From assembly GCA_963920765.1 (NCBI GenBank), contig OY987242.1, positions 24,700,002-24,764,001 of the forward strand: a DNA stretch of 64,000 nt, given 5' to 3'. Of this stretch, positions 1,411 through 61,863 are shown piece after piece. The DNA comes from Ulota crispa (lineage: Eukaryota; Streptophyta; Bryopsida; Orthotrichales; Orthotrichaceae). The notes beneath the pieces were generated by a model, which saw nothing but the letters and a program-made list of their open reading frames with translations, was not told where the DNA came from and ran no database searches. A program made the position numbers and the translations under genes. Position 1 is the stretch's first letter, and each line of letters begins with the position of its first letter.

Positions 1411-4400
1411 ATGATAAAGCTGGAGCGCTACGAGCCGCTCGAGGGGTCGACGTCTTGCCCGCCATCCCCGTCGTCGTCGTCACCTGGTGTCACATCTAAA
1501 AGGTGCATCCCTCCTTATCCTTATGGCAGCTGCATTGCAAGCGCGCGGTGGCTGAGAAAACCCTTGGACCGGAACGGGAGTGTCGGGTATTGTAAGCGCA
1601 GCCGGAAGCGCGGACGAGAGGTGTCCGAGGCAGAGGTGGCGTTGTTGAAGAGAGGCATCATGGGATCCGACCGAGGAGTGCCTGCGTACGCTGGCTGGGT
1701 GTATCACGTCGGCATGAGCTCCATGGGGTACCCGTTTTGCAGCGACAGGTTTCTCGTCATCAAGGGCAAATTCGTCACCATGTTCAAGCGCAACCCTGTC
1801 GAGCACCCTCGCGCTGTATGTCCACACTTCACCCTACTTACTCACTGCTCAATTCTTCTCAATTCTTCATTAAGGGATACTTGAACACCTCATTAGGTAA
1901 AAACAATGCATTCCGGGGTTTTCACTTTAGTTTCTTGTACAATAGTGAAGTCTCAGTGATTGCCTCCAAGAATTTCAAATTATGACAACTTTGAGCTATA
2001 GTTATGCCTACATTTACTGTATGTATGTGAGATTGTGAGATTAAGGTGAAGTACAAAATGGTCCCTCTGTTTTTCCCAATTGACCTAATATGGTGTGACT
2101 GCATGCTCAGTTCTTCATTAAGAGATACTACACCATATTAGGTAAATTGCGAAAAAGAAGACATTCTGAGATTTTCACTTTAGTTTCTTGTACAATAGTG
2201 AAGGTCTCAGTGATTGCCTCCAAGAATTTCAAATAACTACAACTTTGAGCTATAGTTATGCCTACATTTTCTGTATGTATGTGAGATTTAAGGTGAAGTA
2301 GAAAATAATCCCTCCGTTTTTCCCAATTGACTTAACAGGGTGTGACTGCATGCTCAGTTTTTCGCGCTGTATGTCCACACTTCACCCTACTTACTCACTG
2401 CTCAGTTCTTCAATACTCCCTCTGTCCCTCTAAAAAGCTCCAAATCAGACACATTTCTTGTACCACTAAAAAGCTCCCTTTTGCTGTTTTCAAATGCTGA
2501 GAAAGCGTTTGCCATGTTCAATGATCTCATGGGGGCAAGTTAAGTGATTAAAGAGCATTCCTCTCCTTGCAAGCTTGGCCTTGCCCATATGAGGTCCATC
2601 TTTAAATCATCAATAATGAGGAGTTGGCAACATGCACAAATATGGTACTTTTTGCATGGAATTTGGGTGCAACACCATATTCATTAATTTGGGAAAAACA
2701 GGTGTCCCACTTTGTACTCCACCTTAAACCCAAAAAGTTACCTTAAACCAGATTTGAAGGTATCAGATTTAGTCTAAGCCACTAAGATTTTTTCCCTCAA
2801 AAATTCCTCCTCTCAGGTGAGGACACGTGTAAAAAAAACGCTGAGCTCGGTTTAGGAGGCCTCCTAAAACCTTTAGACCAAAATCTGAAAGTCCCAAAAT
2901 TTACCTTTTTTCCCAAATTAACGAATATGACGTTGTGCCCGAAAGGCAACATCAAAGCTGGAGATTTTGCATGCATTTGGTAGATGGTATGTTGATTCTA
3001 GAATGCATGTGTCACTAGCACAAAGATTAAAATAATGAGGAGCTGGCAACATTCACAAACTATGTACAAATATGGTACTTTTTGCATGGAATTTGGGTGC
3101 CTAAACAGCGATATCAAAACTGGTGGTTTTACATACATTTGGTAGATGGTATATTGATTCTAGAATGTATGTGTTGCTAGTACAAAGACTAAAATCACAG
3201 TTAATCCTTTGCAAGGAAGCTTTTTAGACGTATTTAGAGGGACAGAGGGAGTATTAGAAGGCACTTTTCAGGTCTTTCATACTGAGCAACGGACTGAAAG
3301 TCTGAAATCTGTAGGCTCTCGTGATTGATCGCAAAGGTGGTGATATTGAGTGCATTGAGAAAAAAAATTGGTAGGAATTTGAGCTGATTTGATTGCAAAG
3401 GAAATTCAATGCACTATGCTCTTGACAATTTTTCTTTATCAGCAGATAATTGCTTTGGGGTCAGTTTTTCCACACTGAAAAGCATAATGGATCTGGTTTC
3501 TGATTGCTTGAATTGTCACTTTCTTGCCACCAGAGTTTTATAATGTATCTTTCATTCCGTCAAAGGTTCGGATGTCCGTGCTTACCCCCACCTTGTCACT
3601 CATAAAAGCACATCCAATGTCCGCATCATTCCAGTGCTTTATTCCTAGCAAAGCACTAAAATCTGGAGTCATTAATAAATTCTTTGTAAAGGGGGGTGGT
3701 ATTGAGTTTGTTGAGAAGCTTTAGAGCACAGGATGTAAAAGGTTTTTCCCCGAGTGAGCGTTTTCTTTGCATTTGTGCACTGCAGGTGGCTATCAGAAGT
3801 GGAATTGTGGGAACGCATCTGATGGTGGAAGAAGTGGGCCGCCAAATTTTCCACGGAAGGGTATGTATGCAGCAAATGGTTAGCTTGTGAGTTTTGATTA
3901 CATTTTTCAATGATTGTTGACTCAAAAATATTCATGTAACATGTAAATAACGCCATGTGCAACAAATAGGACATTATCCACATATCAAGGCTAGTGGCAA
4001 TCAAAGTTCAAGTTTCTAAATTTTCATTATATAGAATTGTAAAAAACAAGCAATGATGGCAATGAACCTTGACATCGAGCAATCGTGGAACAAAATTTCA
4101 TATTTGGAACCTGAGGTTTTCCCAAATTAATTGAATATGGTGATAAATGACTCTTCTGCAGGCATTGTACGTTCTGCGCATTTTCAATCGCTTGGATCAC
4201 AATAGACAAGGAGAGGTACTTGTGTGGAATTAGTTGGAATGATTGCTCATCTGTTTTTCTATGTATCTATATTATTAGATGTGAAAATCTTGTGTAAAGC
4301 GTGAACTAACATGTATGTTCTTCATCTCCTGCTGGTTACTTCTGAGCAGTTCGCATGTAACACTGCCGAAGAGGTTGAGAAGTGGATAGCTGCTTTCAAG

Positions 4401-14954: not shown

Positions 14955-15180
14955 CCCTTAAACAACCATAGGATATAGTATATATGCTAACGTATAATTG
15001 TCATTTGCTATCAACAAGAAAATATAATTGGGGATCTTAAGTTGTTTACTAGAACCGCATTGATCTATTCTTCAACTTCTTTGTTGATTTCAAATGTAGT
15101 AGAGGTGTGGATCCATTCCACATACAAGAAAAACACCCCATATTGTATTGGTTGCAAAGGGCCTTTGGGTCATTTAAGGA
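14955..15180. mobile_element. TTAA-bounded MITE, subfamily A
   Basis: It is flanked by TTAA at 14951-14954 and 15181-15184. It starts CCCTTAAAC and ends TTTAAGGA. The interior is the reverse complement of the 25109-25327 and 28555-28769 elements (shared block on this strand: GATCTATTCTTCAACTTCTT). 226 bp, non-coding. Confidence 0.75.
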
Positions 15181-25108: not shown

Positions 25109-25327
25109 CCCCTGAAGGATTGAGTGTGCCGCTGCCACCGATACAATACAAGGTACTTTTCTTGTATTTGGAATGGATCCACACCTCTACTACATTTGAG
25201 ATCAACAAAGAAGTCAAAGAATAGATCAAAGTGGTTCTAGTGAGCTACTTGAGACCCCAAATTAAAACTTCTTCCTGGTAGCAAATACCAATTATACAAC
25301 AACATATACACTATGCCCTATGGTCCT
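25109..25327. mobile_element. TTAA-bounded MITE, subfamily A
   Basis: Begins CCCCTGAAGGATTGAG after TTAA (25105-25108). The interior (GATCAACAAAGAAGT, CTAGTGAGCTACTTGAGA) is collinear with 28555-28769 and antiparallel to 14955-15180. Its right boundary is the TTAA at 25328-25331, which also starts the neighbouring subfamily B element. Confidence 0.72.
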
Positions 25328-25331
25328 TTAA

Positions 25332-25579
25332 CCCCTAAAGGATGTTGCTATATTGTATACGTTCTCATGTGTCATATATGGATAGGATATATGAGTAGCA
25401 CATGAATCCCATTGGAGTTGTAAATTTTAAGCCAAGTCACAAACATACTACTAGTCAACTAGGATTTTTTGGAGAATTTTTGACATTTGTCATGAAGGCA
25501 TTTCTTCAAGTACTTCAAGTACTAAATAGTTCTCGTATGAATACAGCCAACACTTTTGGTAGGCAACATCCTTTAGGGG
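25332..25579. mobile_element. TTAA-bounded MITE, subfamily B
   Basis: Starts CCCCTAAAGGATGTTG directly after TTAA (25328-25331) and ends CATCCTTTAGGGG, followed by TAGG (a worn TTAA). The interior is collinear with the interrupted element at 53078-53721 (GGAGTTGTAAATTT, CATTTCTTCAA and TTTGGTAGG blocks). Confidence 0.72.
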
Positions 25580-26506: not shown

Positions 26507-29500
26507 CTGCCAAGTTTCCAACATGGGCAAACCCACTCCTAATCAGCAAAACCCCAACTAAAATTCTCACATCTCAAGTAAACTAAAAAATACTCTCAAA
26601 CATGCTAATACTTTCAACTTTTTCTCACAATTCTTTTATCCCGAAAGAAGAAAATTTTGAAAAACCATTCTTAAATATATCATCACTTAGAAATTAAGCA
26701 CTGCTCATAATGCAAACCAATGGGTACAGCCACAGATTCAAACCGTGGTTTCACCAACTGTCTCAAGTGAGTACAAACACTGCTAAACCCAACTACAATT
26801 CCAAGTTCAACACTGCAGTATTCACATTCTAGTAAGGTAAGGAGGTTCATAAACCGTCCATAAACGATCATAAACCGACCATTTAAGCCTACCTAACTCA
26901 TCCATGACACTAATAGATATCTGAAGGAACATGTCACTCGTTCCTAAATAGGGAACGCATTTAGAACATGGTCACTTTCAGAGCCTCCTACCTTAGCTAC
27001 AAAGAAAAAAAGACAGGCAAAAATTATTGGCAAAACTTTTAAAAAATTAGCCACATTTGTGAACACTGGATATCTACAGACCAAAATATGAAGTGTCTAA
27101 ACACCCTGACATAAATTGAGCTAGCTGCTGTACTGTACAACACCAATACACGCCCTCCCAAAAGCAAAAGAAGAGTGGGGACCTAAGACCGTGGAGCTTG
27201 CCCCTTAGAAACCTTACCTGTAAGGCTCGACACCAACATGCCTCGTAGACCCTTCAGCATTCTCATACACCAACCGGTTCTTAAAATCAGGGATAGGAAC
27301 ACTGAACATATCACCCAGACGGTCGTAGATTTCATCATAAGACCGGAAGATAGATAAATCCAGCGTTCGCCCCACCTCCTCCCCTTCACGAAACACTTTG
27401 CAATGGTGAAACGCTTCATTCAACCCGGCTTTCTCCCGGTCACTAGCCTGGTCCCTGAACCACTTCAAACTGCCCACCTCGCCACCACTTCCAATAGACA
27501 AGTCGGACCAGTGGCCACTACTGTTGTTGCTGGCGTCGTTGTTGTGTCGGTACCGAGACACAGCACCGTTCGCAAACCCGCGCACCCTGTTCTCCAACGT
27601 GTTCTCCAGCGTGTTCTCTGAGGACGAGTTGCTAGTAGTGGACACACGCAAGCCGTCATGGAGAACTGGACCATCCGAGGAGCTGTTCCCTGATGCAACA
27701 CACTGCTGCTGTTGTTGTGGCTTGGACGGGCAGGACGGATCAATCGACTGCCCGAACAGAAAGAACGACGTGGACGTCTTCGTCGCCATAGCCGTAGCAG
27801 TAGCAGTGTTGTCTCTCTGCTGTGGATTTGCAGCAACAGCAGCAGCAGGTAAAAAGCTCGTGACGGAGTGTTGAGAGCGGTGCTGGTGGTGCTGGTTGTG
27901 ATGCTGGTGATTGTGGTGTTGGTGTTGGTGCTGGTGTTGGTGGTGTCCATTGGGCAGGAGGGAAAAGGGGTGATTGGAAGGGGAGTCACTCAAGAGAGTG
28001 CGAACAGGAGGGACCTGCTCGTTGTAGTAGTTATCGCTTGGGTACTCTCGAGGATGTTTATAGGAGTTGTTGTTGTTACTACTAGTCCGGAAATCCATGG
28101 TTAGAAGCCCGTTAAAGCGATCATGCCTGGCTCCCTGCATGCCTGCAGAGACGTCGTCTAAGAGTGCAGGGCCACCCCCCCATGGGGCGGGCAGCTGCTG
28201 CTGTCCCGTGAAGGTGGTGCTGCTGCTGTTGCCACCACCGCCACCGCTGGTGGAGCCTGCGAGCGGCAGGCCCAGCAGCCCCGGCGGTGCCTGCAGCAGC
28301 AGCTCCTGCGGCTGCACGGCGCGCAGCTTCTTCTTGGGCAGGGAGAAAGGGGGCAGCTGCATTGGCAAGGTGGCCACGAGCTCCACCTGCCAGGGACTCA
28401 CACGACTCACTCCCTGCAGTAGGTCTGGCTCGTCCCACGTTACCTGCACTTGCCACCACCAAATTTAAAACCTACGGTAGAGGACACTCCAAAAAAAAAC
28501 CAAAAAAAAAACCGACCCCTTTGCTACTAACATACCTATCTCTCCAAAACACAACCCTTAAACCTCTGAGCGTGCCACTGTGACCTGTACAATACGAGGG
28601 ATTCTTCTTGTATTTGGAACGGTTTCACACCTTTAGATCAACAAAGAAGTTGGAATATAGATCAATGCGGTCCTAGTGAGCTATTTGAGATCCCAAATGA
28701 AAACTTCCTGATGGTACTAAAGGCCAATTATACGACAACATGTCTACTAGCCCTAGGGACGTTTAAGGGTTAAGTTCACCATTCAGTTAGCAAGTGGGTG
28801 TAAACATGACTCAGGTCACTAATCTAAGACTAGAAAACAAGGTTGTCTACTGTCCCCTAGAATGATTGCATGGGAATTTAAGACATAGAGAAAAAAGAAG
28901 TGATCACGAAACTCTTGTAATACCCAACGAGAACTCTATACAGTGGTGCTAGGATAAGGTCAATGCTTTGGGAGAGCAAAAACTATTGATCATATCCAAG
29001 CATTGACTTTTAAGAAGAAATACTCTATTCGACTCGCCTAGAAGACACAAAAAAGAGGGAGACCTTGACACTATCCAAACGTTTCTGTTACAAAGATTGA
29101 TCTTATCCAAGCACCACTGTACTGATCTTCAAACAAAAGCACACTCCCAACATATTGGTTACAATGCATGTACCCCAAGGCTTTGTGACACTTATGAACA
29201 TACCTGTAACACGCGCCATGGAGAATTAGGCCAAAGGAGGGGATCAGCAGGCTGAACAGCAGCAATAGTGCCCATGAACCAACTAATCCTGGAAGAATCC
29301 TCAGTCTCAAACGCCATCTTGAAACGCATGCCCGCGTACCACGAGTGATCCAACGCCTGCTTCACCAACGCAGCCTTGACACAGAACTCCGCGGTGCTAG
29401 CACGAGGGTAATACACAACCTCAAACGGCTTGACAGCCACAGCCAGTGACGCGGCCTCCAGCACGGACTTCGCAGTCACGCGAGCACGGTTGCGTGCAAA

Positions 29501-31326
29501 GCTGCTGCTGCTCGTACCCGACGATCCCTGACTCCCAGGTCGAATCCCGTTGCTGCTGCTGCTCAGTCCACCACCATGGCCATGGCCATTGTCACCACCA
29601 CCACCACCACCACCCATTCCACCAAAAAAATCTGAGAAACTCTCGGTCCCCTTGACCTCCCAACGTGAGGCCCGCATTGCAGAAGTTGCACTTGCTGACG
29701 AGTGCCAGGTGGACGTGTCACCCCCGCTGGTACCACGCATTGAACGTCTCACTCCCACACAAAGCTCCCCTGACGCACTGCGCAAAAACACTATCGCATC
29801 TCCTGCCACTAGCTTCTTCTGATTCACAAACGTGCTCCAGCCTGTTGTCAACAAATGTCGCCTCGGCGTGCCTCTGCAAAAAGCAATCAGGTGTAAAAGA
29901 CTGCATGAAGAAACAGTAGAAAACTTTCAAACCCCCGCCCCAGCGTTCAGATAGCAAGACAGAAAACTCAGCATGTCAATGACCCCACTGACCTTTGCAA
30001 ATTAGGGTTTCCTCCTGATCTACAAACTGCATTAGAGAAAATCATCTGACTGTAAAAATTTGATAATGAGAAAAGCTTGGCTCTTGTCGTAACCCAAGTG
30101 ATCTATTCTGGTAACAAAAGCATACTCGTAGAAGTTGTAGTCTAAAAAATGAGGTATAAGGTAGTAACACCCGTAAGCGTGAAACTAAGGATTTTGGGGT
30201 AAGAAAACCAATTGAGGAACTTTGAAAAAAAAATTGTTAAATAAGGAAGAGGAAATCAAAAATACGGGCATCAATTCAAAAGTTCCAATTGCAAGCATTT
30301 GTTCACAAAGATTTTTTTAAAGTCCAAAATCGCTGAAAATGTATAGTTGTGTGTACGGGATAGCTAAAGAAGACAGCTTAGTGAAATCTTTAGTGTGCTC
30401 ATATGCTCATAATACTAACTTGAGGTGTTCTTAGATAGTGAGATGGGGGACTCAAAACCGTCATGCCAGTCACCTAAAACCCTCACCTTGTCACCCAAAA
30501 CCATCACCTTGTCACCCAAGACCCTCACTGTCACCCAAAACCATCATTTTGTCACCCAAAACCATCACCTTGTCACCCAAAATCATCATTTTGTCACCCA
30601 AAACTATCACTTTGAACTGTCACCCAAAACCATCACTTTTAGGAATTTGTCAGTCACTAACAGAGTAGGGTAACGCCAATGGGGACACTCACGGAGAGGG
30701 GGTGTCGCTACCTTATAGCATAAAGTGCATAATGTGTGGAGTTATGGATCATACCTGTATATGTGCCGGAACTTCCAGACATCGCCATGAACATCCTTTG
30801 CCAAGACAGTTTGCACGGGAGGGTCACTGGAGTAATCCAAGGGAGGAAAGATGGTTTCAGCACAGTAGCGAGGAACAGAGAACCCACCGCCATTGTTGGC
30901 GTCACTCTGAGTGAGGGTTTTAGCAAACGAGGCAGGTTTTTCTGGAGGGGGAGACAAAGGGAAATCCTCCATGCGGTCACTAGAGAAAGGGAGACCTTCA
31001 GGCTGCAAGCGCATTCGAGCAAACACTTCATCCGTTTCGGTGTCAGCCAGAAAGTTGACAGAGACAACACGACATGGCACCGTGCCTGAAGGACCCAAGG
31101 ATGGAGGGAAATCAGGAGTGGTAGCCGCCTGCTCTCCATGCCCTTGTGGAAAATAAATGACCTTGGCTCCCACTGCAGGGAGCTGCACCATGCCTCCTGC
31201 ACACGCGTGCCAGAGCTGCGCATCCAGACGGCCCACATTCTCTCCCCCCGACCCCACGCGTCCTCCCGTGTCATCATGCTTCTCCATTTTCACACTCATC
31301 GATAACCGAGGGCCTGGCCCGGGCAT
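26335..31326 (-). CDS. ARF: Class C AUXIN RESPONSE FACTOR (ARF10/16/17 type), four coding exons
   Basis: Predicted 879-aa nuclear transcription factor; class C ARFs bind auxin-response DNA and generally act as repressors. Exons on the minus strand: 31326-30755, 29873-29204, 28443-27218, 26506-26335; all introns GT-AG, phases join. Domains: dimerisation region with [17 protein letters not shown] (34-50); B3 (134-~236) with [40 protein letters not shown] and [11 protein letters not shown]; a Gly-rich insert (~277-284); Auxin_resp (~327-412); a Gln/His/Ser-rich middle region with a His-rich run near 590-617; PB1 from [17 protein letters not shown] (762) to RRLTIL. The start ATG at 31326 follows a probable UTR splice acceptor. 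Class C is shown by the AETIFP B3 text, the [20 protein letters not shown] text and the miR160 site. Confidence 0.94.
26507..27217 (-). other. ARF intron 3
   Basis: Donor GTAAGG at 27217 (minus strand) and acceptor TTGGCAG ending at 26507. It contains the small TA|AGGTA element at 26835-26993. No other structure seen. Confidence 0.75.
26835..26993. mobile_element. Short MITE of the TA|AGGTAGGAGGCTC family in ARF intron 3
   Basis: Left end TA|AGGTAAGGAGGTTCATAAAC, right end GAGCCTCCTACCT|TA (26994-26995). At 159 bp it is about half the size of the copies at 44.9 and 46.9 kb and lacks their central block, so it is a deletion derivative. Confidence 0.75.
28124..28144 (-). promoter_or_regulatory. 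miR160 target site in ARF exon 3
   Basis: The plus strand reads TGCCTGGCTCCCTGCATGCC plus T, which differs from the conserved plant miR160 sequence only at position 15 (C for U, a G:U wobble in the duplex) and at the last base. The transcript is from the minus strand, so it carries the complement. It encodes AGMQGARH (residues 514-521), the conserved class C location. Expected cleavage lies opposite miRNA bases 10-11 (28133/28134). This implies silencing of the ARF mRNA by miR160. Confidence 0.93.
28555..28769. mobile_element. TTAA-type MITE, subfamily A, in ARF intron 2
   Basis: Starts CCCTTAAACCTCTGAG (left flank ACAA, a worn TTAA) and ends GACGTTTAAGGG before TTAA (28770-28773). The interior matches 25109-25327 (GATCAACAAAGAAGT, CTAGTGAGCTATTTGAGA). 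Confidence 0.75.
28941..29119. mobile_element. Tc1/mariner-type MITE in ARF intron 2
   Basis: TA|CAGTGGTGCTAGGATAAGGT at the left and ATCTTATCCAAGCACCACTG|TA at the right form a ~23-bp inverted pair with a TA on both sides. The CAGT end and TA duplication fit Tc1/mariner. 179 bp, non-coding. Confidence 0.82.
30159..30713. mobile_element. TA|AGGTAG-ended element with internal minisatellite, in ARF intron 1
   Basis: Left end TA|AGGTAGTAACACCCGTAAG, right end GGGGTGTCGCTACCT|TA (30714-30715). The interior is homologous, in reverse orientation, to the element at 43569-44112, including the text near CCAATTGAGGAACTTTG and the TCACCCAAAACCATCAC minisatellite. 555 bp, with no protein signal. Confidence 0.78.
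30465..30650. repeat. 21-bp minisatellite (TTGTCACCCAAAACCATCAC)
   Basis: About eight imperfect copies of a ~21-bp unit, TTGTCACCCAAAACCATCAC plus C/T, with one unit shortened and one lengthened. The open frames across it are translations of the repeat, not genes. Diverged copies of the same unit occur inside the related element near 43790-43855. Confidence 0.9.
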
Positions 31327-49527: not shown

Positions 49528-49531
49528 TTAA

Positions 49532-50476
49532 CCCTTAAAGGATTGTTGTCCTTTGGGGGACAAATGGGATTTTGGGCATGTATCTATGGCTAAGCTACTT
49601 TGCATGATTTTTTGAAACTTTTATTGAAGTTGAGGAATTTAAAGATCTACGTGAAAATGTAATTTTTTCTTCATTCTGATAACTACTGAAGAAGTTATGC
49701 ATGAATAATTGAAAAACAGGGGACTATTGGGCAACCAAAAAAAATTTGAATTTAAAATTTTTTTTTTTTTGAAATTGGTTTTTTAGATTTTTATGTATTT
49801 GGGAAGCCTTGAATCATTCAATTTTGATAGATGAGATGAAAGTTATGAGAAGTTTTAGTTTGCGGGTAGGTATAGGACTCCCAAACCTCCATTCCTTTTC
49901 CTCCTTGTAAAAATTTTTGCTTTACTTTTTTGAGCTCTTTGTGTATTTGTTTTTTTACATTTTTTTTCCAAGTTGTAGTAGACTAAGATTCCTTGGTTTC
50001 TACCTTTTGGATCAAAGTAATTCAGATTTCTAAATTTTACATAAATCCTCCAATTTTGCCTAGTGTATTTGTAAAATTCTAGACCTTCTAGCATTGTAGG
50101 ATTTTACAAAGTATGATCCACATGTCCAATTCATCTGAAAGTTCTCCCACACATACCTAACTTGGTTTTGGACATGATAAAAAAAATCCTCAACTTTGCG
50201 TAGAGTAATTTTTTTGGGTTATCAATGGTCAAAGGCTTTTGAAAATTCCAGGCAATAAAGAAAAAAACTTTTTTCTTCACTTTGGATGTAAATATCTCAC
50301 TCTTCAACATTTGGATTGAGTTGATTTTTTCCCATAGTCTAGGCCAAGATCCTATGGTTGGATTTTCCAAAAAAAAGTTTTGCTTTTTTTTTTTTTTTTT
50401 TTCTATTCTACTCACTCTCCCAAAAGTGGCAGTTTTACACTGAAATTCATAGAAAAAGGCCGTGGTCCTTTAGGGG
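49532..50476. mobile_element. TTAA-bounded element, subfamily C (945 bp)
   Basis: TTAA (49528-49531)|CCCTTAAAGGA at the left; TCCTTTAGGGG|TTAA (50477-50480) at the right. The text after the left end (GGGGGACAAATGGGATTTTG, GATTTTTTGAAACTTTTAT) is shared with 55861-56488, and the GAAGCTTTGAATCATTCAAT-type block with 57926-58858. No transposase. Confidence 0.82.
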
Positions 50477-50584
50477 TTAAATAAAATCTTCATCACAACA
50501 GCTGAAATACTTTGAAATTATGAAAAACAATCATATGCCTTTATTTTATGCTTGTAGAATTATTTATTGATAATAAGTAAAGAG

Positions 50585-51012
50585 AATTGATATATGCACA
50601 CCGCAATTTGATTTATGCACATCGCGATTTGATTTATGCACACTCGGGGGTGAATTTTAGATATTTATCACTGATAAGCTGAATTTGTAAAGTTTGAGTT
50701 CAAATTTGGATTTGGAGACCTTGATTTAGTCTAGAATCATGTAGGAGGTTGCAATTGAACAATGCTCAGTGGAAAATCTTTGCTTTTTTTACAAAGAAGG
50801 ATAACAGTAATAATTTGCCTCCTAGCTAAGCCTTTCCACTAGGCATTGTTCAATTGTAACATCCTTCACAATTCTAGACTAAATGAAGGTCTCTAAATCC
50901 ACATCTAAATTCAAAATTTACAAATTTGGCTTGTCAATGGTAAATATCTAAAATCTACCCCCTAGTGTGCAACTCTGCACATATCAAACCCTGGGTGTGC
51001 GTATTTTAATTC
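50585..51012. mobile_element. Foldback element, AATTGATATATGCACAC family, copy 1
   Basis: The two halves are imperfect inverted copies over ~190 bp each (TTGGAGACCTTGATTTAGTC against GACTAAATGAAGGTCTC; GCAATTGAACAATG against CATTGTTCAATTG). The left end repeats GATTTATGCACA twice, a local expansion. Confidence 0.78.
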
Positions 51013-51141
51013 CCTAAACAAATATGTATTTTATTTTAAATCAAACATAAAAAGGATTGATATGGAATTTGTAACCAATCCTTTTGTACTTGTTATTTGA
51101 ATGTTAAATTGGAGAATTTTTTTTTTTAATATTAAAAATGG

Positions 51142-51523
51142 GGAAATTACAAATAGGGGCATGAAAACGTAAAATATTACAAACAGGGGTGCACTTTCAA
51201 ATAATTACAAATAGGGGCACAATTTTTAAAAAATTGTAATTTTTTTAATGTTAGCTAATTTCTAAAAAAACTAAAAATTCTCTCCAAATCAAGCCAAAAT
51301 AAAGGAATTTTGAGTAAAGAGGATGGTGATTTTTGAAAACTTTAGATTTTTTAGAAGTTAGCTAACATTTTATGTGATATATCTAAATTAACAGATGTCC
51401 AAACCAAAAAAATTATAAAAATTTACTTTTTTTTGTTGAAATTGTGCCCCTACTTATAGTTAATTTGAAACTACACCCCTATCTATAATATTTTACATTT
51501 TCATGCCCTTATTTGTAATTTCC
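51142..51523. mobile_element. MITE with ~90-bp inverted ends
   Basis: Left GGAAATTACAAATAGGGGCA then TGAAAACGTAAAATATTACA; right is the complement (TGTAAAATATT... on the other strand, ending ATTTGTAATTTCC). Two AGGGG(T/C)(G/A)CA blocks in each arm. 382 bp; the superfamily is not clear because no target duplication can be read. Confidence 0.75.
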
Positions 51524-51529
51524 GCATTA

Positions 51530-53073
51530 AATTTGACAATGTTTTGGATATAGAATGTCATTTATGATAACGTTGAATTACTTTAAGGTTGACTTGGATG
51601 AAACTAATGACTATGTTGGATAAAATGTTCCATTAAAATCTTTGTTAAGGAGTTGGCTAAGGACCTTACAATGTTGCCCGTGGTTCCTATTGTCTTTTGT
51701 TGACTCCATTTCAATCATCAATATTTATCATTCAAACTTGGAAAAAGTCAATTTTTATATTGAAGATGATCATCAAGGATTGAAACTTCTATTTGTGTTT
51801 ATAGTCATTGTGTTCTTTTGAAAGAGTTTTTTAAAGCATATACATTTATGAGCAAAAAACACATTTCAAAGACTTTTGAAATAAATTGCTATGAAATTGT
51901 AAACTCAAAACAAACTAGTGATTTTTTTCACATGTTAGATTAATCAAGGGTGAGTTAACGGAAATTTTCTCATCTTTTGATTTTATAAACCTAACCATTG
52001 GATCTTGCATTGAACTATGCAACTTTTTTTGGGAAGCTTGACCTTGTAGATTTGAGAAATATGATCATTTGAAGTTGGTCTAAACAAATGTTTGGCATTT
52101 GTCCAGAATTTTCAGATCCCTTTGATCCCATGGTGTGGATTTTGTTGCATTATGGGTGCTAAGTTTATCAGTTTAACATGCTCTAAAGAATGTTAAGCAT
52201 ACCTACATAAATTTTTATGGCAATCCAAGACATGGAGGACATTCTACATAAACTTGCAATGCAAACATGTGCTACAAATTAAATGTACAATGAACTTTTT
52301 GCAAACCAAACTTCCAAGACTTATTTTGGAAAATAAAAATCCAAACAATAGATTCAAAGATTTTGGCTTCATTGAAAATCACAAAAAAAAGAAAAAAAGA
52401 AGCTCTAGGTGCTATTACAATTTGAAAGCTAGTGTATTTATCTAACATAATAATGCTTTGGGCATACTCAAATAAGATCCTTGTTTGTTCTAGATGAGTT
52501 TCCATTGTGTTCTCAAGTTTGTTCCTATGGATGAGAATGATTCATATGTTTTTTTCAACCATCCAATGCTCTATGTGAATGTAACCAATTTTCATGAGAC
52601 TAAGGCACATTGAAGTTCCTCTTTAAGGCATCAATTTCTTCCCATTCAATATGTGACTTTGGAAAGTCCTAGGGACCCAAGAGGAGACACATGAGCTTTA
52701 CTCATTGCCCCTTCTCTTAATAGAGTTGCCCTCTCAACTTGCTCTTGGAAAAGTCTAAGGATAATTGACATGCCTCTCTTGTCCTTCTAATGTACAAATT
52801 CTCCAAAGTCCTCCATAACTTTTGAACTCTAAATTTGATTTTCAACAAAAATATTATAATTCCATATAACCCTTACAAAACCTTGTTTCATAAAAAAGTT
52901 CCAAAATAATTGATCAAATATCCCAATAGTACAGGCCTCCTCAAAATCCTTTTTGCCCTTAATAACCCAACAAAGCTCAAATCTCAAGTTGAGGTGGGAC
53001 TTGTGGAGATAGGATGTGGGATGTGGTGTGAACTACCCCTAAGGGTCAAGTTGATCTTAGGTCATGAATACAC
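51530..53073. other. Intergenic, nothing firmly recognised
   Basis: AT-rich. Near 52985-53040 is AAGTTGAGGTGGGA and GGTGTGAACTACCCC text resembling the end of the 53930-54651 element, so a worn copy of that family may end here. Confidence 0.4.
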
Positions 53074-53077
53074 TTAA

Positions 53078-53721
53078 CCCTTGAGGGATGCTGTTGTTTT
53101 GTATACGGATGGGGCATTTGGGTAGCATTTGAATCCCCTTGGAGTTGTAAATTTCAAACTAAGTCATAATCACACTATTGATCAACCATGACTTTTTGAG
53201 AAATTTTTTACATTTGCCATAAAGTCATTTCTTCAAATATTACATGGCCCTCACGGCATCCCCAATCCAGTAGGTATATTAGCCCCGCCATCTGTGTCAA
53301 ACAGGGTCTGACTGTGGCTCTCTTACAGAGTAGGGCCTTTTCCCAATCCACCACCTCCCAATGCACATACCTTATGACACTCACTAACCACAAAATTTTA
53401 TTAGTTTATGTCTTTTTTAAGTGCTTATGTGTGAGTGATTCATGTCAGAAGTATTTGAAATTCTCTGAAATTGCGTCAGTGTTAAAGCTGGAGTGGTATG
53501 GAGGACTCTCCAAATAGTGAAAATTTGCAAGAGAGGGGCTCTTATGTGGGGAGCCCTGAAAAATGCAATATAATTTAACTGCTACATTGGAGCCCATGTT
53601 TTTGCTCAAATCCTGTTTAAAACCTTGCACAAGCTTTTGCATATACTTCTTTTACGGATGCATTGGGGATGCCCTCGTACAAATACAGACCACATATTTG
53701 GTAGGTAACTTCTTTTAAGGG
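53078..53721. mobile_element. TTAA-bounded MITE, subfamily B, interrupted
   Basis: TTAA (53074-53077)|CCCTTGAGGGATGC at the left; TTCTTTTAAGGG|TTAG (53722-53725) at the right. Its outer 176 and 47 bp align with the 248-bp uninterrupted element at 25332-25579; the extra ~420 bp is the nested element at 53254-53674. Confidence 0.75.
53254..53674. mobile_element. Nested hAT-like MITE (GGCATCCCCAAT ends)
   Basis: Left GGCATCCCCAATCC and right ATTGGGGATGCC are inverted. The flanks GCCCTCAC and GCCCTCGT could be a worn 8-bp duplication as made by hAT elements (6 of 8 match, depending on where the ends are placed). The empty site is represented by 25332-25579. Confidence 0.6.
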
Positions 53722-53929
53722 TTAGATCCTAATGGGGACATGTGACTATTCAATTAAGTGGCTACAAAACCTTTCTTTTGTATGGGCATGCAAGCTAACT
53801 TACGGGGGTGAATCAAATATTAGTCGGAGTGAACTTGGGGACTAGGTCTTGGTCCAGAAAGCAATAAAAGCTTTGTGCCCGGTCCATAATGTCTTTTGTG
53901 AGCATGGTTTTTGAAAAGTCTGGGGGGTT

Positions 53930-54651
53930 CACACTATGTCCCATATTGGAATTTCAGAAATCATACTGTGATTGGTCGAGAGTCAAAAGTTAGGACCCGG
54001 TAGTTTACACTAAATTTCAAGTCTCAAGTCATGATTCACTTAGAAAGGTTTCCATGGCAATATTTTTTGTGTGTTTTGGCGTCGAGAAGGTGGTACTTTG
54101 CTCATGGTTTGGATTGAACATTTTGCTTGATCCACTTCCAATTCAAATCCCACCAATTTTTTTGCATAAATTGTTTATGTTTTTTTTAAATATTCTTTTG
54201 TATACCTATAAATCCAACGGAATCAAGATATCAAGTTGAGGTGGGAATTGCACAAATGCAACATGGAACTTGCACACGTAGGGTGTGGAACTTAGGAGTA
54301 GTTCACACTACTTTCACATCTTGTCTTTGCAAGTCCCATCTCAACGTCAAATCCCAATTTCATTGCGTTTTTGAGGGCAAAATGGAGTACCAAAGAAAGT
54401 CATGAATATTTCATACAGAAAATATTGGTGTGACTTGGGCTAAAATTTTGGTTTAGCAAAACCGTTGACCCAAATTTGAAGTGGGATCCCATTTTCTTTG
54501 GCACCAAAACTTTCAAAAAGTACTACCATGTAAGCAACTGTGATGTGGGATGTGGGACATAGTGTGAAGCACCAAGAGTCCCAACTTTTGACTCTACACG
54601 AATCAGATTCTCAAATTTCAGTGGGACGTGGGACATAGTGTGAACTGGCCC
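53930..54651. mobile_element. Element with ~75-bp inverted ends, GGTTCACACTATGTCCC
   Basis: Left GGGGGTTCACACTATGTCCC and right GGGACATAGTGTGAACTGGC are inverted, and the match continues inward through GAGTCAAAAGTT(A/G)GGAC. A second inner pair (TCAAGTTGAGGTGGGA / TCCCATCTCAACGTCA) lies in the centre. No open frame recognised. Confidence 0.68.
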
Positions 54652-54654
54652 CTC

Positions 54655-55635
54655 ATAGTCTCAAAAGAATATGAGACTTGGTAAACGTGGAACGAACTCC
54701 AGAGGGGGCTGCGGCTGATGCACTGCAAGCTGCCTACAAACTGGGCCATGTCTGAAAAAGAATCATCCTCGTCAAGTCTGCGGACCAGATATGCTTGGGG
54801 GGGAGGTTCGAGAACATTAGGATCTCTTTAAGGTCAGTAGGAGTCAAAGCTGTTTTGAAGCGGTCCCAATCCTAGCCTTTTTTGGTTCAATCTAGGAAAT
54901 CAACTCCTCCAAGGCAGGGAAAATTTTCTTGGCAAAAACTAGCCTATATCTTACCTCAACTCAAAACCCAACTGGCGACCATAACATTAGAAAAACTCAG
55001 TGAAAATATGGATGAAGTTGTTAGGGATGTTACTCGTGAGCTAGGATCCATGAGTCATGAGTCATGAGCGTAGTTTAAATTTTACCAATGAACGTATACA
55101 CATGGTCTTGTAATTTTGCATTATAAATGTTCATCTCTTGAATAACCATTCATGGGCTCACCATTTTATGCTCACAAAACAACGTCGTTTTGAAGTTGCC
55201 AAATCTTTCCCCAAGTTTACATTAAATTTGTTAGAATTTGAATGAAATTTACTAATATTAGTATATTGTACGGATGAACGTGCACATGTTGATTCTATCC
55301 AAAATTTCCTTACTTGCTCGCAAGGTGGGGTGCATGTCGCTCTAATGGCAAAAATAAATAATAAATAAAAATCTTGCTCCAAGCTTGCAAGGATGGCTTT
55401 CACAGGTAATTAAGGTTTTTTTTGGTTCAATTTTAACAATGGGTCCAAACCCAAACTTCCACAAAAAGAGGATGAGTTGAGTTTGATCCTGGTTTAGGGG
55501 AGGGTGGCCCCGACACCCATGTGCACGTATCTTTATTTATTCTTAAAAGAAACACTAGATGACATTGGGTGCCAAATAAGGTTTTTTGAATAACCCTCAT
55601 GAGTTGAAGCTAAAAGTTTTGAAGTTTATTTTAGG
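54655..55635. other. Intergenic, nothing recognised
   Basis: Mixed composition. The 54882-55067 open frame is short with no recognisable family. No inverted repeats seen. Confidence 0.45.
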
Positions 55636-56721
55636 GGATTGATATAGGCACACCTGGGATTTGTTGTATCTACATTTGGGGTAGATTTTAGATGTTTATC
55701 ATCAACAACTTGAGTTTGGAAAATTTGAATTCATGTATAGATTTAGAGACTTTAATTTAGCCTAGAACCACAAAGGTGGACACAATTGAACAACACCTAG
55801 TAAATGAGCTTAGCTAGGGGGCAAATTATCACTTTTACCCTTGTTTTAGCTTTTATTTAACCCCTAAATCCCTGAGTGTCCCCGCGGGGGACAAATGAGA
55901 TTTTGGGCAGGTACCTATGTCTAAACTACTTTGTGTGATTTTTTGAAACTTTTATGGAAGATGGGGAATTCAAAGATCCGTGTGCACATCTTTTTTCTTT
56001 TTCATTTTGACTTTTTTTGAAGAAGTAAAAAATGAATTTCTGAATTTTTTTGGAGATGGGGCAGTCCGGGCAGCCCAAAAATTGGTTCTTTGAGTTTACA
56101 TGTTCATGGGAAGCTTTGAATCACTTGAATGAAATGAAAGTTATGAGGACTTTTAGTTAATTGGTAGGTATGGAGCCATATCTACCAATTAACTAAAAGT
56201 CCTCATAATTTTCATTTCATTCAAGTGATTCAAAGCTTCCCATGAACATGTAAACTCAAAGAACCAATTTTTGGGCTGCCCGGACTGCCCCATCTCCAAA
56301 AAAATTCAGAAATTCATTTTTTACTTCTTCAAAAAAAGTCAAAATGAAAAAGAAAAAAGATGTGCACACGGATCTTTGAATTCCCCATCTTCCATAAAAG
56401 TTTCAAAAAATCACACAAAGTAGTTTAGACATAGGTGCCTGCCCAAAATCTCATTTGTCCCCCGCGGGGACACTCAGGGATTTAGGGGTTAAATAAAAGC
56501 TAAAACAAGGGTAAAAGTGATAATTTGCCCCCTAGCTAAGCTCATTCACTAGGTGTTGTTCAATTGTGTCCTCCTTTGTGGTTCTAGGCTAAATTAAAGT
56601 CTCTAAATCCACACATGAATTCAAATTTTCCATATACAACTTGTTGATTGGAAATATCTAGAATTTACCCCCCTTCTCATTGTATATATATAACAAACGT
56701 TTGGTGTACATATATCATTTC
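55636..56721. mobile_element. Foldback element copy 2: ~1.1-kb nested palindrome
   Basis: The outer arms belong to the AATTGATATATGCACAC family (GATTTAGAGACTTTAATTTA against TAAATTAAAGTCTCTAAATC; GCTTAGCTAGGGGGCAAATT against AATTTGCCCCCTAGCTAAGC). In the centre sits a TTAA-bounded palindrome (55861-56488), so the whole is one almost continuous inverted repeat centred near 56175. Confidence 0.88.
55861..56488. mobile_element. TTAA-bounded palindromic element, subfamily C derivative
   Basis: TTAA (55857-55860)|CCCCTAAATCCCTGAG at the left; CTCAGGGATTTAGGGG|TTAA (56489-56492) at the right. The arms of ~310 bp look nearly identical (e.g. GTCCCCGCGGGGGACAAATG at each side). It contains only the left part of subfamily C, mirrored. 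The centre is GGTAGGTATGGAGCCATATC. Confidence 0.88.
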
Positions 56722-57921
56722 CATTAAATATTGACATTATAGGATGGAATAGAAATTCCAAAGGCTCTACTTGATCTCCTTCTTTATTCCTTGTAAACCC
56801 CTAAATCCTTGGGGCCTTTATTTTGTCAAAAGACACTCAAAATTGCCATCTCTATTGCAGAGAGTTTTTTCTATTTTGAAAATTGGTCTTTTTGCATATC
56901 TAACTATAGGATCTTGTACTAGACTAGTATAAGAATGTGGAAAAAAATCAAAATTTTTGACTGCAGAGATTGCAAGATTTATGCGTTTCAAGTGTAAAAA
57001 TTGACAAACTTTTTTGCACCTTGCATGACTATATTATTTGACTTTGAACTTTTTTTATATATTTTTTTTGCACCACAAGGTTTGAAGTTTTATTTTTTTA
57101 TGGTGGAAATTTGAGTTGAGACTCTTTGGGAAAAACTCAAAACAAAAAATAAAATATTTTCATTCTAAAAAAGAACACTAGGTGAGAATCTTTGGAAAAT
57201 AATCAAAATGAAAAAGACTTTATTTTCATTCTTAAAAGAAACATTAGGTAGAAGAAGGTATGAGATTGAACACAAAATTAAATTGTTAATAACCTTGCAA
57301 TGGAATTGAAATGCAATTATCCCAATGGTGAGATTGTTCTAGCAATCAAACGTCACCCTTTCCAACAATCTTTTTTGAAAAAATGTTAAATTTGCATTCA
57401 AAAACAAAGTTTATAAGTTATTTTTTCAAGAAGATGCTTGAATTGCTCAAAAAACAAGATTGTCCATTACTTTCTCATAACTAGTCCAAATGGAATGAAT
57501 CAAAAGCTTTAAATGAAGACAAATCTATAACCTGTGAGAATTGTATTTTATTTATAATATCAAGTTTTTGTAAAATACAATTTGCTGCCTGATATCCCCA
57601 AATTTGTGCATGTCTGAGCACAACGTTTGCTCCCAGGCATAGATTGGAATAAAATTTATGTCCCTCAAAAGCTAATATACTTTTCTATCTTTAGAGTGAG
57701 TTTAAGAAAATCAAGATAAGGCCACAGGTATGTGCCCAAAATCCCATTTCAATTGTCCCTTGAGAGGACAAATTCTATTTCTTGCTCTGCAACTCATGTG
57801 TGACCAAGGTTTGGAACCAACTAGCGGCTAGTTAAAAGCTAGCCAGCTGAAGTGAGAAAAAACTATTTGCAATTTAAAAACATTGGCTGAAAACTAGTTA
57901 TAAATCTTTAATTATATATAT
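56722..57921. other. Intergenic, nothing firmly recognised
   Basis: AT-rich, with TTGTCC-type and CCCCTAAATCC text near 56798 that may be the end of another worn TTAA-type element, but no partner end was found. Confidence 0.4.
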
Positions 57922-57925
57922 TTAA

Positions 57926-58858
57926 CCCCTAAAGGCCCAAATAGTGATTTTTGGCAACATAGCAATTTTGGGCAGCTCATTACAAATGGATTTTTCATTT
58001 TCTTTCTTTGAAATTTTCACACATAATGTATCCAAGGAGTAGCTTTAAGGCCCAACAAATTTCATAACTTTTGACTTTATGGTTCAAAAGTTATGCATGA
58101 TATGTAGTTTTCTTTGTTCAAGGGGCAGCTCGGGCAGCTCAAAATACTTCTTTAAAAATATCATCTTTTGAATTTTGTTTTTTGAAACTGGTTCTTTAGA
58201 TATATATATCCTTGGGAAGCTTTGAATCATTCAATTTTCATCAATGAGATGGAAGTTATGAGGAGATTTTGTTTGCGGGCAGTTATGGATTCCTTACTCT
58301 AAAAAAAACTTTTAAGTCCTATGTTTTACTCAGTTTTTAATATTTTGGAAAAAAAATAAAGTCAAAGTATGTAGATTGTTTATCACAACATTTTGACCAT
58401 TGGGATTGGAATTTTTGTTTTCCATAATTAAATTCTTAACAATTTAATGTTTTGAATCATTCTCTACTTCTTTTTACTTACTAATTCTTTCCTACAAGTT
58501 ATACATTTCCAAATGATTTGAAATTTTTCAAGTGTGTACCTGACTTGCCTTAAAGAATGAATACAAAAAATTACAACCATTTTGAAACTTTTTTCATACA
58601 AATATGACCTTGTGAAGTGCAGCTGCCCAGATTTTTGCATGGACAAAAAAAGACTTTTTGTCAATTCAAACTTAATCACCTAACAATCCGCATGGCAAAA
58701 ATTTCTGAATTTTTTCCACATCTTTACATACTAGTGTACTACAAGATCTTATGGTTAAATGTGTTCAAAAATAAATTTTATCTAAAATTTGATACTTGCA
58801 CTACAAATGGCAGTTTTGGAACAATTTTGATGAAAACATAGTCAAAAGCCTTTAGGGG
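57926..58858. mobile_element. TTAA-bounded element, subfamily C (933 bp)
   Basis: TTAA (57922-57925)|CCCCTAAAGGCCC at the left; AGCCTTTAGGGG|TTAA (58859-58862) at the right. Near-homologous to 49532-50476 in parts (TTTTGGGCAGCTC, GGGAAGCTTTGAATCATTCA, AGGAGATTTTGTTTGCGGGC). No transposase. Confidence 0.82.
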
Positions 58859-58862
58859 TTAA

Positions 58863-59466
58863 TAGTATGAAATAGAGAAAATAACCAAATTTGTTCCTTG
58901 ATAAACAGGTTTTATATGGGAATTGAAGGAAATCAACCAAAAAGAACTCAAATATTTCTTGGACCCTAGGTGTGACCATCCCCGGTGAATACTCTCTCTA
59001 ACTCAAATTGCTCATCATCAAGGATAGTCACACCGTCTCCAACACGTTCTCAATTTGTGGAGAATTTTAACATGGCAGCACAATTCTTTGAAGTTGGCTA
59101 AGTTTTTCCTTCTCTCACATGGGCGGAGAACTTCCCCAATTGCAAAATTTTCACCTCAAGTTGTCTTGTTTTCACCGCTCTTTGTTAGTAATTTACCATT
59201 GCAGTTGCTCCTCACAGTTATTCTTCGTGGTCAGTAAATCATTCTCCATTCTCCACCCACAAAAGGAGTGTCACACCTTCTTCATGGAAAAGTTCTGCAA
59301 TTAGATCCTATTTTCACTCAACCAATTCTCAACCTTCACTGAAGTTTCAATCTTGGAGAAGGTGTGACTACCCCTATTGTTCTTGACTTGTTGGATTCCT
59401 AACTTGTTAGTTGTGTTTTCTCTTTTCCAATTTTGATTGCCCACGGAAGTTTGGCCTTAATCAGGG
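58863..59466. other. Intergenic, nothing recognised
   Basis: Moderate composition. Open frames at 59055-59304 have no recognisable family. AAGGTGTGACTACCCC near 59360 and TGTGACCATCCCC near 58972 are inverted in sense and may mark ends of a further small element, but the match is short. Confidence 0.4.
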
Positions 59467-59872
59467 GAATTGATATATGCACACTGGGGGGTTGATATTT
59501 GCACACCCCTTCTAGGGTAAATTTTAGATTTCTACCATCATAAGGCTGAATTTGAGAATTTTGAATTCAGATTTTGACATAGAGACCATGATTTAGTTAA
59601 GAACCGTGAAAAAGGTTGCAATTCAACAACACCCAATGAAAAGCTTATCTTTTTTTACAAACAAAAGTAAAAGTAGCACTTTTCCTCCTAGTTAAAATTT
59701 TTTAGTGGGTATTGTTGAATTGCAATTTTTTTTGTGGTACTAGACTAAATCATGGTCTCTATGTCAAAATCTGAATTCAAAATTCTCAAATTCAGCTTTA
59801 TGATGGTAGAAATCTAAAATTTAACCCAGAGGGGTGTGCAAATATCAACCCCCGATGTGCATATATCAATTC
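59467..59872. mobile_element. Foldback element, AATTGATATATGCACAC family, copy 3
   Basis: Ends GAATTGATATATGCACAC and GTGCATATATCAATTC are inverted. Arms of ~190 bp (TGAATTCAGATTTTGACATA against TATGTCAAAATCTGAATTCA). This is the most symmetric of the simple copies. It abuts the TTAA element at 59883. Confidence 0.85.
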
Positions 59873-59882
59873 TGTTAGTTAA

Positions 59883-60525
59883 CCCCTCACCGCCCAAGGG
59901 GCCCAAATCAAGCTTCTATGAATTTTATTCAAGGATGCACAACCTTTCTACAAGATTTTTTTAGTGATTATTATTACTTTTAAACTCTTATTGAAGTCTG
60001 GTTTCAACATTAGGAGTCTAATTTTGAAAATGAATTAAAGTAATTTGTCTATTCAAGATTTTGTGCAAGGGTGTCCATTGCAAATCTTCACTTTCTAATG
60101 TTGAAGGCTCTTGGAAATGAGCTTCAAGTACACTAAAACTTGGAGAAAAAATCACATTAAAATTTCAATTTAAAAATTTGTAGAATAGATTTTGAGAAGC
60201 CGTAAATTGATTGGGGTTAAGCATGTTATACTTTACATACTTGTATTTTTTTGGTACCCTCAATTTTAGGTTTGAGATGCAAAAAGAGGATTGAAAGCCT
60301 TCAAATCACTTTCGCAATTTTAACAGCCTCATGATCAAACATTATAATCTTTCAATCCATAAATGATATTTTTGTGATTTCTTTTTGTATGTGATCTACA
60401 ACATGTCTACTTTGAATTTATACGGTTGTACTTTAGAAAAATTGATAAGATTGATAAAAATGCCGGCATTTGGTTCACTTTCAAACCAATTCTAAGACAG
60501 TCCAAACTCCATGGGCTGTGAGGGG
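59883..60525. mobile_element. TTAA-bounded element, subfamily D (643 bp)
   Basis: TTAA (59879-59882)|CCCCTCACCGCCCA at the left; TGGGCTGTGAGGGG|TTAA (60526-60529) at the right. The inside is AT-rich and unlike subfamilies A-C. Confidence 0.8.
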
Positions 60526-60529
60526 TTAA

Positions 60530-61330
60530 TTACTCCCCAAACCGGTGATGCTACAGGTGGGTTTCACCCCCAAAAACCCGTGGCAGAGGGCAAAGCGGGC
60601 TTGACAGCAAGTGCGAGCGTACCATTCGCACAGTTACCTTCGGGCACTGGGCCACAGGGCCTGTGACTGGCATGTGCAGTTGGAAAAGCGGAGCGCGACA
60701 CCCGAAGCCCGGGCCGATGACCACGGCGACCGGGGCGAAGCGGGCGGGCGGGCGAGCGGGCAGGCAGGGGCAAGCTGCCCGGTCCTGCAAGGCTGCAACT
60801 TGGACCACGGCGAGGAGTAGGAAATGGAAAAATGATGAAAGGGGGGGTGCGGAAGTGCGGACATGGAGGCGGCCGCTGTTCTCGGCTGCTTTGTAGCCTG
60901 CTTTCGGACTTGGGGGCCCTTGGCCCGGCTCGGACATTCTGTCAACCCCCCTGACTTGTCTGTCCTGCTCCTCTTTGCCATTATGGCCCCCCTCCTTTTC
61001 TTTAGCCCCATGTAACCGATGTTACCCAATTTGGCCTTTTCTTTTTTCCTGCAAATACCAGCAGGCCCCAGCGCCCAGGGTGTACGACCTGAAGTAAAAG
61101 TTAACTTAAGGTAGTTGAAGCACATTCCGCTGTGTTTTTAGCCCACTTGAGCTAAATTGAAAAAATCACCATTCGGACCCCATCTCCTATGATACCACCC
61201 CTACGCCCCCTATTACCGACTTTTCCTGCCCTTCCGGCGGACTGCCCATCTTTGCCGGCTCGGTGTCCTACACAGACGTGCTGTGGGGTCAAGGTGGAAA
61301 ATCTCAGTTTTTTTTTACAACCAATGGATT
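60530..61330. other. GC-rich island between two TTAA elements
   Basis: An abrupt change to GC-rich, CpG-rich sequence (e.g. GGGGCGAAGCGGGCGGGCGG near 60733) in otherwise AT-rich DNA. Overlapping open frames in several phases (60551-61125 on the minus strand, 60611-60896 on the plus strand) result from the lack of stop codons in GC-rich sequence. None has a recognisable domain. It may be captured sequence, part of another element or a remnant of a gene. Confidence 0.5.
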
Positions 61331-61333
61331 TAA

Positions 61334-61577
61334 CCCCTAAGCGTCTAGGTCAAATTCATGCAAGGCTGGACCTCATTGCAAACAATTTGGCATTGTAAGT
61401 TCAAAAATAATATCTGGAAGAGTTAGCCTTTGATTTTGCACAAGGCTTAGGGTCTGGAGCTGTATACAAAATTTGGTAAGTTTTCATTGCATGGATCTAA
61501 AGATTTATAGCAGTCAAAGAACACAAACTGATGAATATGGAGAGGTTAGATTTGGGACGTTGGGGGGCACTTAAGGG
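61334..61577. mobile_element. TTAA-bounded MITE (244 bp)
   Basis: TTAA (61330-61333)|CCCCTAAGCGTC at the left; GGCACTTAAGGG|TTAA (61578-61581) at the right. Short imperfect inverted ends. The interior does not closely match subfamilies A or B. Confidence 0.7.
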
Positions 61578-61863
61578 TTAAATAATAATCTACCCATTCT
61601 TTTGGAGTTGGTCAATTATATCCTCTATAGTTATAACATTTGGGAATATTTCTAGACTTCACCAGCTAAAATCTGGCATTTTACGTATTCAACTTGTTTT
61701 TTGTTGGATTGTACCGGATATGTTCCTAATTCTACACTGTAATATGTTGTGTTTATATATTTTTGTAAAATCTAACTGGTTCTTTTGCCGGCAAATTCAA
61801 AATGCAACTAGTTTTTTCCAATTCCACCAATTGCCTCTGGTTTTTTCCACACATTGAGTTCTA

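Follow-up and report, generated by a model that had tools for sequence, protein, structure and literature searches.

Non-autonomous piggyBac-type elements and diverged DDD-transposase lineages in the genome of Ulota crispa

A host gene and TTAA-flanked repeats at the locus

The window, that is, the whole 64,000-nucleotide stretch of DNA analyzed here, lies on contig C1 of the Ulota crispa assembly (274.8 Mb, 157 contigs). It contains a split auxin response factor (ARF) gene with B3, ARF_AD and AUX_IAA domains; such factors are also known from some close streptophyte algae. There are 12 copies each of the motifs TTAACCC and GGGTTAA in the window, as against means of 5.1 (maximum 11) and 4.8 (maximum 10), respectively, in 50 first-order simulations. 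A strict search for TIR pairs returned five, as against zero to two per simulation in 20 second-order simulations; these five represent three distinct listed elements (55861, 57926 and 59883, named like the others by their start in the window), the remaining two being one shifted and one mispaired version.

The first-pass annotation had proposed at least nine elements of the form TTAA-CCC...GGG-TTAA and given 11 starts for them, which holds in part. Seven of the 11 starts pair with an inverted end of the CCC...GGG type, two of them with a worn flank (28555) or a worn end (14955) and the other five with TTAA at both flanks (Table 1). Element 25109 is a member of a verified family, but its right end is worn, and the starts at 25332, 39789 and 53078 are unsupported as elements of this form. 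The paired inverted ends are imperfect, matching at 9 to 14 of 14 positions in the six pairs compared. Several subfamilies with distinct ends are indeed present, as had been claimed.

Table 1. Features of the window and piggyBac-related loci elsewhere in the genome
Feature	Position	Strand	Flanks, ends and remarks
ARF coding pieces	27214-28449 and 29192-29854		flank MITE 28555
MITE, ~215-240 bp family	14955..15180	-	TTAA on both sides; right end GGA, not GGG; from alignment and repeat borders
MITE, same ~215-bp family as 14955 and 28555	25109..25327	+	TTAA-CCCC on the left; right end worn, end coordinate approximate
MITE, same family as 14955 and 25109	28555..28769	+	left flank ACAA, right flank TTAA
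945-bp MITE	49532..50476	+	TTAA at 49528-49531 and 50477-50480; ends CCCTTAAAGG / CCCCTAAAGG
628-bp palindromic MITE	55861..56488	.	TTAA on both sides; related to 49532
933-bp MITE	57926..58858	+	TTAA on both sides; ends CCCCTAAAGGCCC / CCCCTAAAGGCTT
643-bp MITE	59883..60525	+	TTAA on both sides; ends CCCCTCACCGCCC / CCCCTCACAGCCC
244-bp MITE	61334..61577	+	TTAA at 61330-61333 and 61578-61581; ends CCCCTAAGCG / CCCTTAAGTG
Transposase locus L001			5019 bp end to end; TTAA directly at both ends
Transposase locus L006			5094 bp end to end; TTAA directly at both ends
Transposase locus L005			5578 bp end to end; TTAA at both ends; 11/16 end positions match
Transposase locus L003			6013 bp end to end; TTAA at both ends; 10/16 end positions match
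Transposase locus L008			5280 bp end to end; TTAA at both ends; 10/16 match; one side begins CCT, not CCC
piggyBac-like gene L084	C1:1179300-1182900; pieces 1350-1841 and 2112-3038		PF13843 5.6e-32 and 1.2e-25
Opposite-strand piggyBac match pairs	C2:36765124/36779670; C7:18203169/18223004; C10:676128/785346		

Alignment with window and genomic copies places 14955, 25109 and 28555 in one family of about 215-240 bp, with 14955 inverted relative to the other two. Sited between the two ARF coding pieces, 28555 is probably intronic. No paired inverted end was found in the window for either 25332 or 39789. Among the larger elements, 49532, 55861 and 57926 have internal sequence in common. The left and right TTAA of 55861 should not be counted as separate evidence: together with about 113 bp of flanking DNA on either side, the element makes up a single near-perfect palindrome.

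At 25320-25345, between 25109 and 25332, lies the junction GGTCCTTTAACCCCTAAAGG, with a TTAA inside the end of this element type; one element may therefore have been inserted into the end of another. The sequence TTAAGGGG was not found in the window.

Families and end motifs across the genome

Genomic copies of 49532 comprise 40 near-full rows, 39 of them besides the window copy and 84-93% identical to it (40 of 9,078 first-look candidates scored). There are likewise 39 other long genomic rows for 59883, 90-93% identical (40 of 3,616 candidates scored), and 39 other rows for 61334, 80-85% identical (40 of 414 candidates scored). The ends of 49532 and of 59883 are common to their genomic copies, and the copies of 61334 start in 34/39 cases and stop in 25/39 cases no more than a few bases from the respective TTAA. 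For 49532 we compared 30 copies, a biased sample made up of those closest to the window copy. By eye, 26 of the 30 have an exact left TTAA; an automatic count at the blast ends, some of which are trimmed, gave TTAA on the left in 22, on the right in 24 and on both sides in 16. The divergence of these 30 closest copies from their majority averages 4.4% (range 3.1-5.6%), which, within the bias of the sample, suggests a burst.

The end motif TTAACCCCTAAAGG has 15,411 exact occurrences on both strands, as against one for its reversed control and 21 for a version with ATAT in place of TTAA; thus, each of the four flank bases is under strong constraint. Exact occurrences on both strands number 704 for TTAACCCYTCACCGCC and 2,228 for TTAACCCTTTARNGACC, as against none for the control in either case. 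If each element contributes two ends, the TTAACCCCTAAAGG motif alone would correspond to roughly 7,700 elements.

Empty sites and target duplication

The joined flanks of 59 automatically detected candidate records, in which overlapping loci are counted repeatedly, were compared with sampled DNA, and paralogous empty sites matching across the junction were recovered for 12 distinct insertions. An exact single TTAA is found in three of these 12 (L042, L050 and L057), the match at L042 lacking one base just after it. Most of the others have a single TTAA-like tetramer that departs from TTAA at one or two bases (for example TAAA, TCAA, CTAA, ATAA, TTGA or TGAA), and the paralogues carrying such a tetramer are continuous and 66-89% identical. 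Gaps fall at or beside the junction in L011 vs L045, L025, L028 vs window, and 55861 vs L021. No consistent duplication length other than TTAA was seen in the 12 paralogous empty-site alignments. As read from these alignments, the target duplication appears to be TTAA; a TA duplication with ends reading ACCC...GGGT would give the same sequence, and we set it aside solely because of the transposase evidence.

Transposase loci and their ends

At least 120 genome matches to DDE_Tnp_1_7 (PF13843) lie above the cut-off, the best with an E-value of 1.3e-73, and are located on contigs C1 to C11; none falls inside the window (116 of 528 candidates scored). One or more stops are present in 110 of the 120 matches, and the ten without stops include some that are partial or are pieces of one place. 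No uninterrupted full-length transposase was seen between two ends. Loci L001-L008 showed no paired ends within 1.5-kb flanks; longer flanks brought out the left ends of L001 and L006, some 2.5 kb upstream of the domain. With flanks so extended, five of the eight loci have TTAA-flanked end pairs 5.0-6.0 kb apart (Table 1), the pair at L003 being chosen over two equal- or higher-scored pairs because both its flanks are exactly TTAA. The other three gave no pair: a right end only at L002, a left end only at L004 and neither at L007. A further locus, L071, has a right end only. The surroundings of L084 and L086 contain no TTAAC[CT] start or [AG]GTTAA end, and those of L085 no such ends that pair. 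Inverted ends starting with CCC are found in the window elements and in the transposase elements L001, L003, L005 and L006. The check proposed in the first-pass annotation, a genome search for DDE_Tnp_1_7 flanked by the same ends, thus returned transposase-bearing elements with TTAA-CCC ends of the window type.

The open frame of L071 matches PF13843 (8e-60) and, in the PDB, the piggyBac transposase 6x67 (4.1e-20) and piggyBat 9c0f (5.8e-17); open frames of L084, L085 and L086 also match PF13843. In the L071 alignment the first two aspartates fall on D268 and D346 of piggyBac, which we take to be catalytic, as we do the residues of the DDD triad generally. Across 12 loci, aspartate occupies the first position in ten, the second in nine and the third in 11, with all three present in eight; the exceptions are N at one position in L002 and L008, N at the third position in L071, and L007, which showed only the third aspartate. 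A cysteine-rich C-terminal tail, read by eye in six loci with the cysteine spacing of the piggyBac C-terminal domain as reference, is clear in L002, L004 and L005, partial in L003 and L008, and decayed in L071.

At L084, two uninterrupted pieces adjoin at position 166 of the profile and can be joined in frame by GT-AG (1841/2119); the 3.6 kb covered contain no ends of the TTAACC type. Read in frame 0 with X at stops, the locus gave no Pfam match, while in their correct frames all pieces but the first gave Pfam matches. Judged by its sequence, L084 is possibly a domesticated gene.

Some piggyBac matches also form pairs of equal or near-equal score, one on each strand and separated by 15 to 109 kb (Table 1); these are possible large inverted duplications.

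Relationship of the MITEs to the transposase elements

Similarities between the MITEs and the transposase elements are short, with modest E-values. The left end of 59883 is 85% identical to that of L001 over the first 27 bp (E 0.002-0.006) and 89% identical to that of L006 over the first 18 bp (E 0.23). Over its last 54 bp, 49532 shares 76% identity with the right end of L003; two further colinear blocks (72% and 81%) match the 3' end of L003 at nearly equal spacing, the three together spanning 320 bp in one element and 318 bp in its counterpart (individual E-values 7e-4 to 3e-3, from a small comparison). This colinearity makes 49532 look like a relative of an L003-type piggyBac that has undergone internal deletion.

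A piggyBac origin of the window elements

The assignment of the window elements to the piggyBac superfamily in the first-pass annotation is supported by the transposase domains, the shared ends and the empty sites. We are nearly certain that these elements are non-autonomous piggyBac MITEs and that the genome houses several diverged piggyBac lineages with a DDD transposase, through which the MITEs would have been amplified in trans. The observations behind this are the common end motifs, the TTAA-flanked copies, the empty sites with a single TTAA-like tetramer, the domains between ends and the relation of 49532 to L003. Under the proposed mechanism, each of several diverged lineages would have its DDD transposase gene bounded by C-rich inverted ends with TTAA flanks; this enzyme would cut at the element ends and insert the element into a new TTAA, with duplication of the TTAA, and short copies retaining little beyond the ends would have multiplied through such a transposase in trans. 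Hairpin cut-and-paste chemistry, mobilization in trans and mainly past activity would be expected by analogy with the known piggyBac mechanism.

Mariner and Harbinger MITEs are common in plants, and flanks reading T-TA-A would formally also fit the duplication of TA within a TTAA site; hence, the elements might belong to PIF/Harbinger (TWA duplication) or Tc1/mariner (TA duplication), with ends that happen to read A-CCC...GGG-T. Against this, PF13843 domains lie between such ends in five of the eight extended loci and the ATAT control indicates constraint on all four flank bases, leaving this reading very improbable. Kolobok, another superfamily known to make TTAA duplications (PMC9587614), would also account for the TTAA flanks; however, its ends are described as 5'-RR and YY-3' (PMC9587614), as opposed to CC...GG here, and what was found between the ends is a PF13843 domain, so that we give Kolobok practically no weight. 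Kolobok, Harbinger and mariner were accordingly set aside on the type of end and the domain between the ends.

The transposases could also have nothing to do with the MITEs, being contaminants or newly acquired foreign DNA, a notion favored by the 2022 review of land-plant transposable elements without piggyBac in its main text (PMC9033089). Its probability is negligible, as the transposase matches lie on contigs C1-C11, which also bear the MITE families, and both ends and subterminal DNA are common to the transposase elements and the MITEs.

Comparison with known piggyBac elements and their hosts

piggyBac is a standard gene-transfer tool, and its natural hosts have been described mostly in animals. 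The elements described here resemble the superfamily, as represented by Trichoplusia ni piggyBac (6x67) and piggyBat (9c0f), in the PF13843 domain with its DDD residues, the TTAA flanks, the CCC-type ends, the cysteine-rich C-terminal motif of several loci and the existence of MITE derivatives. Published inverted ends of piggyBac start with CCC, for instance CCCTT or CCCTC, and its transposase has a C-terminal cysteine-rich domain (PMC10813416). In contrast to the 2472 bp of T. ni piggyBac (PMC10140906), the transposase elements here measure 5.0-6.0 kb; they further differ from known piggyBac in the plant host, the very many MITE ends and the several diverged, mostly broken lineages. The mechanism and kind are known; what is unusual is the host, together with the copy number.

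The view that piggyBac is not a usual land-plant superfamily, also put forward in the first-pass annotation, meets a mixed literature. The 2022 review names six plant TIR superfamilies, with piggyBac absent from its main text (PMC9033089), whereas a 2024 plant review includes PiggyBac among plant superfamilies, citing a general classification (PMC10794571). Animal papers state that piggyBac occurs in plants (PMC10813416; PMC10140906), a fern repeat table has 1,230 PiggyBac copies amounting to 122 kb (PMC6890710) and a Stipa table has one (PMC8319324); the available text of a paper on Physcomitrium transposable elements contains no occurrence of piggyBac (PMC7466625). PMC10619864 was rejected as a source, its 'piggybac' being, in the text available, part of 'piggybacking'. 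Among the best matches in the openly licensed literature we found none that describes a land-plant radiation of piggyBac, which is weak evidence.

We entertain only tentatively the broader proposal that this is a lineage with piggyBac as a major, multi-lineage group that gave rise to thousands of MITEs and left behind at least one unbroken piggyBac-like gene with an intron (L084), which may be domesticated, a radiation for the most part overlooked in surveys of land-plant transposable elements. With its several lineages and thousands of ends, the genome allows a test of whether piggyBac is ancient in plants or was acquired by horizontal transfer. It also suggests that piggyBac MITEs of this sort may go unclassified when plant repeats are annotated.

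Foldback and nested repeats around the elements

Element 55861 sits midway inside another foldback repeat, and the near-perfect palindrome at 55678-56671 extends beyond the MITE into this enclosing repeat. Its arms match at 310/313 positions, then at 54/55 and 57/58, and further out at 54/66 and 12/64. The arms are about 363 bp long in other genomic copies; the shorter length in the window copy is common to both arms, which suggests that they were homogenized in place. Two relatives of the foldback repeat lie at 50637-50971 (148-nt arms, 83%, with a 39-nt loop) and 59507-59834 (136-nt arms, 89%, with a 56-nt loop); no TTAA-CCC ends were noticed on either. An inverted repeat at 51137-51528, with 66-nt arms (88%) and 260 nt between them, is perhaps another MITE.

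The start at 53078 was rejected as a clean element on account of its poor partner (9/14 positions, flank TTAG) and the different repeat inside it. This nested repeat, at 53247-53675, has inverted ends of the GGCATCCCCAAT type, and many of its copies occur in inverted or head-to-head clusters (40 of 1,329 candidates scored).
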